DNA from: Spelaeicoccus albus
Lineage (GTDB): Bacteria > Actinomycetota > Actinomycetes > Actinomycetales > Brevibacteriaceae
Direction of reading: 5' to 3'
Assembly (NCBI RefSeq): GCF_013409065.1
Contig: NZ_JACBZP010000001.1
Span: forward strand, 3,854,518-3,918,517
DNA length: 64,000 nucleotides
Below, in pieces: positions 28,949 to 33,401 of the stretch. The notes below the pieces were generated by a model that did not search any database, was not told the DNA's origin, and worked only from the letters and a program-made list of their open reading frames with translations. Both the position numbers and the translations under genes were made by a program. Each line of letters begins with the position of its first letter. Position 1 is the first letter of the stretch.

Positions 28949-29830
28949 TCAGTTGAGGGAACGTTCGGCGGCGTCGACCACGTTGGCCAGCAAAAGCGCG
29001 CGGGTCATTGGCCCGACCCCGCCCGGGTTCGGCGAACGCCAGGCTGCCACGTCCTGGACGTCCGGCGCCACATCGCCGACGATTTTCGACTTGCCGGTCT
29101 CCGGATCGGTCCGCCTGCTGACTCCGACGTCCAGGACGACGACGCCGGGCTTGACGTTGCCGGCGTGCACGATGCCCGGCGACCCGGCCGCGGCCACGAT
29201 GATGTCGGCGCGGCGCAGGTGCGCGTCAAGGTCACGGGTGCCGGTGTGCGTGAGCGTGACGGTGGCATTGTATTCGCGGCGCGTGAGCAGCGTGCCGATC
29301 GATCGGCCCACCGTGATGCCGCGGCCGAGGACGACGACGTCGCGGCCGGCCAGTTCGATGTCGTAGCGACGCAACAGCTCGATGATGCCGCGCGGCGTGC
29401 ACGGCAGCGGCGTGGTCAGCGGGCCGTTCACGTTGAGCATGAGGCTGCCGAGATTCACCGGGTGCAGACCGTCGGCGTCCTTGGCCGGGTCGATACGGGA
29501 CAGGACGGCGTCCTGATCGATGTGCGCCGGCAGCGGCAATTGGACGATATAGCCGGTGCAGTCCGGATCGGCGTTCAACTCGTCGATGGCGTCCAAGACG
29601 GTCTCTTGCGCGACGTCGTCGGCAAAATGCCGGCGGATGGACGCAATGCCGACTTCGGCGCAGTCCTTGTGCTTGCCGTTGACGTACCATGTCGAGCCCG
29701 GATCGTCGCCGACCAGGACCGTGCCGAGACCCGGCCGGACGCCCGCGGCCTTCAACGCGGCCACCCGCTCGGTCAGCTCGGCCTTGATGGCGGCCGCCGT
29801 CGCCTTGCCGTCGAGGATGTCTGCGGTCAT
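28949..29830 (-). CDS. folD: methylenetetrahydrofolate dehydrogenase / cyclohydrolase
   Basis: 293 residues from ATG 29830, 8 nt after GGAGAAG; a GTG nine nt upstream is less likely. It interconverts methylene-, methenyl- and 10-formyl-tetrahydrofolate. The catalytic Lys is in [21 protein letters not shown] and [14 protein letters not shown] mark the cofactor domain, and [13 protein letters not shown] is near the C-terminus. A short leader ORF ends 2 nt before the start, and a ZTP riboswitch lies further upstream, so expression should rise when the folate-stress signal ZTP accumulates. Confidence 0.96.
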
Positions 29831-29832
29831 GG

Positions 29833-29943
29833 TTACCACTTCTCCGATCCCGGGTGGAGTTCGGTTTGCGCTACCGGGTTGGCTGCGCGGGTCGATTTCA
29901 CGGTCGGCGCTGCGATCGACGGTGCGTGGGGCGGATTGGTCAT
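29833..29943 (-). CDS. 36-residue leader ORF upstream of folD
   Basis: ATG 29943 follows a strong ribosome site (GGAGGAG, about 9 nt upstream), and the TAA at 29833-29835 is 2 nt from the folD ATG. The folD Shine-Dalgarno sequence lies inside its last codons. The peptide starts [18 protein letters not shown] and has no recognisable motif or membrane segment. It lies between the riboswitch and folD, so riboswitch control of its translation could be passed to folD by coupling. It could also be an unstructured leader without a protein product. Confidence 0.45.
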
Positions 29944-30010
29944 CGGGGCGTTTCTCCTCCGGGCGGTCGGTCGTGGGCTGTCATCGTGTGGATGACGGAG
30001 ATCCTTCATC

Positions 30011-30089
30011 GGCCCAGGCGAACGACAGATGAATCCAACCTTGCCGCTCCTCGATGGTGATCCATCCAAACGCCGGTCGCGACGGCAAC
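30011..30089 (-). promoter_or_regulatory. ZTP (pfl-motif) riboswitch upstream of folD
   Basis: Read on the minus strand, the order of conserved parts matches the ZTP class. The P1 5' strand TTGCCG runs into CGCGACCGGCG (30088-30071). A P2 hairpin follows with GATGG and CCATC (30066-30053). Then comes GAGGAGCGGCAA, which closes P1 (30052-30041), a linker, and the hallmark 3' segment TCGCCTGGGC (30021-30012) that forms the P3 pseudoknot. The class senses ZTP/ZMP, which builds up when 10-formyl-folate is short, and is known upstream of folD. Downstream, GATGA/TCATC and GTCATC/GATGAC can form alternative hairpins, and the ribosome site GGAGGAG of the leader ORF lies just beyond. There is no U-tract, so translational control is more likely than termination. 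Confidence 0.85.
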
Positions 30090-30142
30090 AGTCTAGCAAC
30101 CGCCACGGCAGCGCTGCTACGACCTGTCGATACCATGAAGCG

Positions 30143-31006
30143 ATGAACTCACCCGACCGGATGCAGCACCAACGAGTCCTGCGAATTTCATGCCCCGATC
30201 GTCCCGGCATCGTGCACGCCGTCACCGGCGTTCTGGCCGGCGCCGGGGCCAATATCACCGAATCGCAGCAGTTCGGCAACGCGGATTCCGAGCACTTCTT
30301 TCTCCGGTTGCAGTTCAGCGGCGGCCCGTCCTCGGAGGACCTCGCCCGGGCGCTCCGCCAGGTGGAGGCCGAGTTCGGCATGGACGTGGCGCTCGACACC
30401 GTCGGGCGGCCGGTGCGAACGATCATCATGGTGTCGAAGGCCGGGCATTGCCTGAACGATCTGCTGTATCGGCAAGGGGCCGGGCAGCTGCCCATCGAGG
30501 TGGCGGCAGTCGTCGGCAACCACCCCGATCTGGCCCCGCTTGCCGAGTTCTACGGCGTGGATTTCGTGCACGTGCCCGTCACTGAGGGCACAAAGGCCGA
30601 AGCCGAGCGGCGCATCACCGGCTTGGTCGAAAGCCTGAACGTCGAGCTCGTCGTGTTGGCCAGGTACATGCAGATCCTGTCGCCCGAGCTATGCCGGCGC
30701 CTGCATGGGCGGGTGATCAATATCCACCACTCGTTCCTGCCGAGCTTCAAGGGCGCCAAGCCGTATCACCAGGCGCACGCGCGCGGCGTCAAACTGATCG
30801 GCGCGACGGCGCATTACGTCACGCCGGATTTGGACGAGGGCCCGATCATTGAACAAGACGTTGCGCGCGTCACGCACCAGTTCCGCACCTCCGACCTCGT
30901 CTCGCTCGGCCAAGAGATCGAAGCACGCACGCTCAGTCATGCCGTGCGGTGGCATGCCGAGGGCCGCGTACTGCTCGACGGTGACCGGACGGTCGTCTTC
31001 CGCTGA
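30143..31006 (+). CDS. purU: formyltetrahydrofolate deformylase
   Basis: 287 residues from ATG 30143. It hydrolyses 10-formyl-tetrahydrofolate to formate and tetrahydrofolate. An N-terminal ACT domain (about 8-85, SCPDRPGIVHAVTGVL) is followed by the formyltransferase fold with NIHHSFLPSFKG (catalytic Asn and His) and GATAHYVTPDLDEGPII (catalytic Asp). A -10-like TACCAT ends 6 nt before the ATG, which fits a leaderless transcript. It is divergent from folD, so both enzymes of the formyl-folate pool lie side by side and the riboswitch is in their shared gap. Confidence 0.95.
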   Translation: MNSPDRMQHQRVLRISCPDRPGIVHAVTGVLAGAGANITESQQFGNADSEHFFLRLQFSGGPSSEDLARALRQVEAEFGMDVALDTVGRPVRTIIMVSKAGHCLNDLLYRQGAGQLPIEVAAVVGNHPDLAPLAEFYGVDFVHVPVTEGTKAEAERRITGLVESLNVELVVLARYMQILSPELCRRLHGRVINIHHSFLPSFKGAKPYHQAHARGVKLIGATAHYVTPDLDEGPIIEQDVARVTHQFRTSDLVSLGQEIEARTLSHAVRWHAEGRVLLDGDRTVVFR

Positions 31007-31757: not shown

Positions 31758-32357
31758 TTACGCGTCGTCCTTGGACGACGCGTCGCCGTCTTCGTCGGAC
31801 TCGGCAGCCGGGGTCTCGGCGGCCTCGTCAGCCGGAGCCTCTTCGGACTCGGCAGCCGGAGCCTCTTCGGCCTCGTCAACCGGAGCCTCTTCGGACTCGG
31901 CGGCTTCGGACTCGTCGACCGGTTGTGCCGGAGCCTCGTCCTTGGCGCTGCGCTTGGTCGCGGCCTCGGCTTCGGCAACCGTCGCCTTCTTGGCGCTCAG
32001 TGGCTCGAGCACGAGTTCCACAACGGCCATCGGCGCCTTGTCGCCCTTCCGCGGCCCGATCTTCGTGATCCGGGTGTATCCGCCGTCACGATTCGCGACC
32101 GCCGGAGCGATTTCGGTGAACAGCACGTGCACGATGCCCTGATCCGAGATGCGGCTGAGCACGCGACGCCGGCTGGCCAGATCGCCGCGTTTGGCGAACG
32201 TGATCATGCGCTCGGCGACGGGGCGCAGGCGCTTGGCCTTCGTCACGGTCGTGGTGATCTGCTTGTGTTCGAACAGCTGGCCGGCCAGGTTGTTCAGCAG
32301 CAGGCGCTCATGCGCCGGGCCGCCCCCGAGACGCGGTCCCTTGCTAGGCGTAGGCAT
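31758..32357 (-). CDS. rplQ: 50S ribosomal protein L17
   Basis: 199 residues. The first 120 are a normal L17 ([20 protein letters not shown], then [20 protein letters not shown]). The remaining 75 or so form an acidic Ala/Glu/Pro tail made partly of 8-residue repeats, longer than the core family needs but known in actinomycetes. Last gene of the alpha operon, 24 nt after rpoA. Confidence 0.97.
31807..31902. repeat. 24-bp tandem repeats coding the acidic L17 tail
   Basis: Four imperfect 24-bp units (31807, 31831, 31855, 31879), each reading like GCCGGAGCCTCTTCGGAC on the plus strand. They encode repeated octapeptides of the type [16 protein letters not shown]. The unit is a multiple of three, so copy-number change would keep the frame. 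Confidence 0.8.
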
Positions 32358-32381
32358 TCTTCTCGTATCTCCTTTGAGTTC

Positions 32382-33401
32382 TTAGAGCTGCTCGTCTTCG
32401 GCGAAGGCGAGATCGTCGTCTTCGTCATCGGCAGCTGCAGCGGCGGCGGCCGGGTCGAATCCGGGAGGGCTGTCCTTGAGCTGCAGGCCGAGTTCGGCCA
32501 GCTTCTGCTTGACCTCGTCGATGGACTTCGCACCAAAGTTGCGGATGTCCATCAAATCGGCTTCGCTTCGTGCCACCAGCTCGCCCACCGTGTGGATGCC
32601 TTCGCGCTTGAGGCAGTTGTAAGACCGAACCGTCAGGTCCAGATCCTCGATGGCCAGGGCCAGATCGGCCGCAAGCGCGGCGTCCACCGGCGACGGTCCG
32701 ATGTCGATGCCTTCGGCTTCAACGTTGAGCTCGCGGGCCAGGCCGAACAGTTCGGTCAACGTCTTGCCGGCCGAGGCGACGGCGTCGCGCGCGGCGATGG
32801 CCGGCTTCGTCTCGACGTCCAGCACCAGCCGATCAAAGTCGGTGCGCTGTTCGACACGAGTGGCCTCGACCTTGTAGGTGACCTTGAGAACCGGCGAGTA
32901 GATCGAGTCGACCGGGATCCGGCCGATCTCCGAGTCGACGTTCTTGTTCTGGACGGCGGAGACGTAGCCGCGTCCGCGCTCGATGGTCAATTCGAGTTCG
33001 AGCTTGCCCTTGGAGTTCAAGGTCGCGATGTGCAGATCGGTGTTGAAGATCTCGACACCCGCCGGCGCCGTGATGTCCGCAGCCGTGACGACGCCCGGGC
33101 CCTGCTTACGCAGATAGGCCACGACCGGCTCGTCATGTTCGGAGCTGACGACGAGTGACTTCAGGTTCAGGATGAATTCGGTGACGTCTTCCTTCACTCC
33201 CGGGACCGTCGTGAATTCGTGCAACACGCCATCCACCCGGATGCTGGTGACCGCGGCACCCGGAATCGACGAGAGCAGTGTACGACGCAGGGAGTTACCC
33301 AGCGTATAGCCGAAGCCCGGCTCCAGCGGTTCGATGACGAACCGTGAACGATGGGCGGAAACGACCTCTTCAGTTAGCGTGGGACGCTGTGCAATGAGCA
33401 C
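32382..33401 (-). CDS. rpoA: RNA polymerase alpha subunit
   Basis: 339 residues. The N-terminal assembly domain (about 1-230) includes [21 protein letters not shown] linker leads to the C-terminal domain with [19 protein letters not shown] and [16 protein letters not shown], the helix-hairpin-helix that contacts UP elements and activators. An acidic tail ends the protein. It is preceded by a 137-nt gap after rpsK that contains a GCGAGAAC/GTTCTCGC hairpin near 33450-33475. Confidence 0.98.

Follow-up and report, generated by a model that had tools for sequence, protein, structure and literature searches.

A ZMP/ZTP riboswitch upstream of folD in Spelaeicoccus albus and a probable relic of glyA between them

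The stretch of Spelaeicoccus albus DNA analyzed here (64,000 nt; hereafter, the window) carries a ZMP/ZTP riboswitch aptamer upstream of folD, on the same strand (Table 1). Between the two, glyA is absent, and a 36-codon open reading frame (ORF) lies in its place. This ORF is very probably what is left of glyA, with the start site and the end still recognizable and the middle gone or decayed. We consider it likely that the ancestral arrangement was ZTP riboswitch, glyA, folD, that glyA was deleted internally, and that the switch now drives folD through the remaining stub and re-initiation of translation. The riboswitch class is well known and its occurrence at this gene is no surprise, the evolutionary twist being a modest one; the relic of glyA is the one part that deserves a second look.

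Table 1. Features of the riboswitch-folD region (window coordinates; for paired elements, the two strands of the helix are separated by a slash)
Feature	Position	Strand	Basis or remark
ZMP/ZTP riboswitch aptamer, RF01750	30005-30090	-	cmscan; helix limits by eye from sequence and alignment
Aptamer P1	30083-30079/30047-30043	-	GUCGC/GCGGC, ~5 pairs
Aptamer P2	30066-30062/30057-30053	-	GAUGG/CCAUC
Aptamer P3	30033-30024/30014-30005	-	nine pairs and one U.C mismatch
Aptamer pseudoknot	30074-30071/30020-30017	-	GGCG with CGCC (P3 loop); sequence and cmscan alignment
Probable -10 box TAGACT	30090-30095	-	TGC before it (extended -10); predicted +1 near 30083, the first P1 base
Linker, aptamer to ribosome site	29961-30004	-	hairpin GUCAUC-cacac-GAUGAC; CUCCG able to pair with the Shine-Dalgarno; putative role
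Shine-Dalgarno GGAGGAG, probably left over from the ribosome site of glyA	29954-29960	-	start-site pattern
36-codon ORF, probable glyA relic	29833-29943	-	GlyA-like C terminus; stop 2 nt before folD ATG
Last eight glyA-like codons and stop	29833-29859	-	hold the probable folD Shine-Dalgarno GGAG, 29845-29842
folD, methylenetetrahydrofolate dehydrogenase/cyclohydrolase	28949-29830	-	NCBIfam NF010789.1, 465.7 bits (cut-off 401)
purU, formyltetrahydrofolate deformylase, divergent	30143-31006	+	TIGR00655, 319.6 bits (cut-off 285.95); start codon uncertain

The initial annotation had proposed a ZTP riboswitch in the gap between folD and purU, since the blocks of the ZTP/pfl motif occur there in order. 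All of these blocks are indeed present on the minus strand (GACCGGCG, the P2 hairpin, GAGGAGCGGC, and UCGCCUGGGC), as is the conserved CGCCUGGGC (30020-30012, by sequence and cmscan alignment). The covariance model, which had been named as the check, bears out the call: with Rfam cmscan, the match to RF01750 scores 48.6 bits against a gathering score of 39 and covers the model end to end (1-86 of 86; E = 7.1e-5 for the 64-kb window), the ends first given, 30089 and 30011, falling 1 and 6 nt short of it. It is the sole match at the gathering threshold among the 4227 Rfam families scanned over the window, and the whole genome (4.03 Mb in a single contig) has no other ZTP match. The genes found downstream of this class have been listed, and the association known, since 2010 (PMC2864571), and folD fits the class as a gene of purine and formyl-THF metabolism. 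We have practically no doubt that this is a ZMP/ZTP riboswitch aptamer, and an ordinary-looking one. The long P1 of the Rfam consensus (10 pairs) is absent, the outer pairs being nonstandard, so that about five pairs are left; the model as scored needs no outer P1 pairs. This shortened helix, together with a score only ~10 bits above the gathering score, might indicate a vestigial aptamer that lost binding and was kept by chance after the loss of glyA. We judge this very unlikely, given that the core blocks are intact, that aptamers of intact operons in the same family score much the same (48.8 bits in genome G003 and 50.8 in G002), and that the short P1 has an explanation in the promoter, whose -10 box sits where the outer P1 would be in most of the aptamers examined.

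This explanation comes from a pattern-based survey that yielded 91 distinct aptamers having 22 nt of upstream sequence each, not counting the one in the window; the pattern misses some Rfam matches (e.g., locus L008). In 87 of the 91, the hexamer TANNNT falls in the slot from 17 to 5 nt upstream of the base that opens P1, versus 26 of 1582 control slots (overlapping, 35-190 nt upstream). It starts at -12 or -13 in 74 of the aptamers, and in 39 it is preceded by TG one base before. The TAGACT box of the window ends 7 positions ahead of the base at which P1 begins. A generic sigma-70 scan called no promoter at the aptamer, TAGACT included. Transcription probably starts at P1, so that the transcript would begin with the aptamer itself. 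With a -10 box at the aptamer edge, the outer consensus P1 would therefore be unable to form, and its poor pairing in the window would follow because that stretch would be promoter DNA and not RNA. Given the -10 box at the edge of most aptamers examined, their transcripts, too, probably begin directly with the ZTP aptamer, which is helpful for the design of probing constructs.

The main peculiarity of the locus, namely the loss of glyA between the aptamer and folD with a 36-codon relic left behind, was missed in the initial annotation, and it becomes visible when comparing the window with related genomes. We searched for ZTP aptamers in the genomes of 50 of 80 folD loci and obtained 49 matches, of which five were unplaced; the 44 placed matches comprise 39 in the folD locus, three outside it, and two for which no aptamer can be read at the mapped position and which probably belong to a different contig. 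In all of the 39 folD loci (38 genomes) with an aptamer on the folD strand, glyA lies between the aptamer and folD, its product being 73%-82% identical to the GlyA of L013. Across the order, 270 of 396 genomes have a ZTP match at E ≤ 0.001 (260 above the cut-off), and within the same family, 4 of 60 do, including the genome of the window; searches over more than 40 genomes used stricter filters, and weak ZTP matches are lost in such counts. We also inspected 60 order-level matches, one per genome and taken from the high-scoring end of those listed, hence not a random sample. Here the next gene is glyA in 44, a PurH-like ORF in 14 (a label from reading the sequences, with a Pfam MGS-like domain in the two tested), a PurE-like ORF in one, and another gene in one. 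A folD match stands behind glyA in 42 of the 44, although in six of these it is only 45%-46% identical. Nowhere among these 99 loci (39 folD loci and 60 order-level matches) does folD directly follow the aptamer. In many of the relatives, the glyA stop and the folD start are adjacent or overlapping.

Two genomes of the same family, G003 (locus L013) and G002 (L010), show the full order of ZTP aptamer, glyA start (GGAGACGCCC..GTGAG), glyA end, and folD, and theirs are the FolD starts most similar to that of the window (81%-83% over ~50 residues). A plasmid tblastn search with FolD gave distant homologues only (best, 67%). The genes rplQ and rpoA lie near folD in the window (31758-33401, minus strand), and in G002 (L194), ORFs that we read as rplQ and rpoA come just before ZTP-glyA-folD; their presence beside both loci supports that these correspond to the same ancestral place. 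Other arrangements occur in the order. In one ~2-Mb genome (G456, locus L152), the ZTP aptamer precedes an ORF read as a membrane transporter, and in another of ~2 Mb (G185, locus L186), a PurE-like gene with an AIRC domain. No ZTP match was obtained in 6 of the 50 genomes searched for the folD loci, under a filter that loses weak matches; all six are Brevibacterium. These loci (L025, L028, L049, L058, L059, and L075) resemble a loss in the reverse direction, as purU and glyA-folD are kept, and all six have a -10-like TTAGCAT box upstream of glyA.

Both ends of the 36-codon ORF point to glyA. A single pattern covers its start site, GGAGAAACGCCCCGATGA, and those of glyA in L010 and L013. This pattern (GGAGAN{0,2}CGCCCNNRTGA), which was composed after the sequences had been viewed, matches once in the window (29957-29940, minus strand) and never in 100 shuffles, and among 102 loci its only occurrences are this very site (in L001, the locus of this genome) and the sites where glyA begins in L010 and L013. 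The end of the stub, LHPGSEKW-stop, resembles GlyA ends such as LYPGLEEW-stop and LYEGLEQY-stop. Among the 1702 stops of the window with eight open codons before them (all frames), that of the stub alone reaches its GlyA-end score; in the loci, the score is reached by 10 of 17677 stops, consisting of nine true GlyA ends, unannotated, and the L001 site. When the 59 nt before folD are compared with 18 glyA ends, the mean score is above those of all 500 shuffles, and the best single match is reached by two of the 500. By the same comparison, the stub shows no recognizable likeness to glyA in its 5' coding part (85 of 500 shuffles are as good on average, and 199 of 500 by best match). An in-frame deletion is thus indistinguishable from a deletion followed by decay. 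A frame-shifted, DPEI-like reading in this 5' part was considered and dropped. By our guess, which is not a computed value, an ORF open from the old start to the old stop could arise by chance in roughly one case in five.

A conserved upstream ORF under a riboswitch is known in Mycobacterium tuberculosis (the Mbox system; PMC12810186), and in line with this the 36 codons might encode a functional small regulatory peptide rather than derive from a gene. We hold this to be very improbable, for the end of the ORF is GlyA-like and stands where relatives have glyA, a Pfam search of the ORF gave no match, and the genus is represented by one genome alone. Selection on the start site and on the folD Shine-Dalgarno and stop would explain the persistence of the relic of glyA without any role for a peptide: the start site would be kept because it is the one that the riboswitch would govern, and the last glyA codons because they carry the probable Shine-Dalgarno of folD and a stop 2 nt before its ATG.

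The genome encodes a single SHMT, in a gcvT-glyA-sdaA operon (L103, G000:C1:1761764-1763041) at which the genome-wide RF01750 search found no ZTP aptamer. We built a tree of 31 of the 130 extracted SHMT rows, including 24 folD-linked ones. In it, the SHMT of this genome joins the second SHMT found in genomes of its family (100/100) and stands away from the 24 folD-linked rows. The same-family rows L010 and L016 fall beside Brevibacterium rows (99/95 and 98/84), which points to Brevibacteriaceae as the probable family. G002 and G003 have the folD-linked copy only, and many others add a second copy, 75%-79% identical. A loss of the ZTP-preceded glyA after redundancy with a second SHMT would fit these observations. 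Nevertheless, neither gcvT nor sdaA is found within 1.5 kb on either side in any of the 29 second-copy SHMT loci of the same family that were checked. The present gcvT-glyA-sdaA operon is therefore not common to them, and this counts against a simple shared history of the SHMT copies.

How would the switch act on folD today? ZTP riboswitches are regarded as ON switches, in that terminators overlap the 3' part of many of them and the ligand is expected to raise expression (Weinberg 2010, PMC2864571). The window has in common with the class a full-length model match and a folate one-carbon gene downstream, but differs from its relatives in that the first gene, glyA, is cut to a stub with folD alone left, and from the class in that no intrinsic terminator is seen on the folD strand (scan of the minus strand of 29700-30400; a terminator-like site is found on the plus strand at 29842-29859). 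We consider ZTP control of folD highly likely. Starting from a ZTP riboswitch before a glyA-folD operon, an internal deletion in glyA, with the second SHMT elsewhere doing the work, would have left the riboswitch, the ribosome site and start codon of glyA, and its last eight codons with the stop. When 10-formyl-THF runs short, ZTP or ZMP rises and would bind the aptamer, and the bound aptamer, if it acts in the direction expected of the class, would raise expression by way of the old glyA start. Having read the stub, ribosomes would terminate 2 nt ahead of the folD start codon and begin again there by re-initiation; translation of the stub may also keep Rho off the leader.

We looked for a structural basis of the switch by folding and found none. 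The Shine-Dalgarno of the stub is unpaired with a probability of 0.36 when the aptamer is imposed and 0.41 without it (a weak test), and the means over 33 relatives are 0.44 and 0.45, with three gaining and six losing more than 0.1. Sequestration of the Shine-Dalgarno was rejected as the mode of switching, since folding with and without the aptamer is alike in the window and, on average, in relatives. An anti-P3 strand, as in terminator-type ZTP switches, was also rejected: over 50 loci including the window, complementarity is no higher than in shuffles (z = 0.6 in the window; mean z = 0.21). The free fold of leader and stub is no more stable than that of shuffles (z = 0.23).

These results bear on whether the stub takes part in regulation at all. 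It might be a dead scar, with the switch acting on the folD mRNA level only (e.g., through the access of Rho to the leader) and folD being translated independently from its own Shine-Dalgarno, the GGAG near the end of the stub. The negative folding tests and the lack of an intrinsic terminator in the scanned region agree with this, as does the precedent of an M. tuberculosis riboswitch paired with Rho-dependent termination, in an organism where intrinsic terminators are called rare (PMC12810186). On the other hand, both the glyA start site and the stop-start spacing have been kept, as coupling would require, and the Shine-Dalgarno GGAGGAG of the stub is strong (duplex energy with the 16S tail, -9.5). 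We regard a dead scar as rather unlikely, but as the most serious of the alternatives. As to the coupling of the switch to folD through the stub, we put its chances at about even. The full hand-over, in which the first gene was deleted, its two regulatory ends were fused into a landing-pad ORF, and ZTP control passed to folD alone, is offered tentatively, at a little under an even chance.

The layout has a parallel in the B12 switch of M. tuberculosis upstream of uPPE2 and PPE2, where the riboswitch-controlled upstream ORF (uORF) serves as a landing pad and termination-reinitiation was shown (PMC11260477). As there, the window contains a riboswitch, a short ORF with its own Shine-Dalgarno, and a stop beside the start of the real gene, here with a 2-nt gap. 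The M. tuberculosis system differs in its ligand (B12), in being an OFF switch, and in the overlap of stop and start. In the portion of that report considered here, the uORF is not described as the relic of a gene, and reinitiation was shown there, whereas in the window we infer it. In the same species, Mbox-Rv1805A-pe20 combines a riboswitch on a small upstream ORF with Rho-dependent termination (PMC12810186); it is similar as a case of a riboswitch acting on a small upstream ORF in an actinobacterium and differs in belonging to the Mg2+ class, and in that its ORF encodes a conserved peptide and is not a deletion scar. A riboswitch over a gene relic was named in none of the titles and abstract openings covered by our literature search, subscription papers being outside it.

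The calls of folD and purU made at the outset were right, each gene being matched by its NCBIfam equivalog model. It had further been suggested that the two sides of formyl-folate balance come together in this single gap. This holds for the position of the two genes; nothing shows ZTP control of purU. The claim is only positional because the aptamer is on the folD transcript and purU is read from the other strand. A divergent purU less than 500 nt away is seen in 12 of 45 ZTP-glyA loci (found by pattern, with 1 kb of upstream sequence; L193 and L194 were dropped from the count as repeats of L013 and L010).

If the stub does couple the switch to folD, the first gene of an operon can vanish while its control signal is retained. 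This would suggest one origin for the short ORFs behind actinobacterial riboswitches, and the hand-over, if true, would be a way for riboswitch-controlled uORFs to come about. In Spelaeicoccus albus, it would mean that the supply of FolD has been uncoupled from the supply of GlyA under the ZTP signal.
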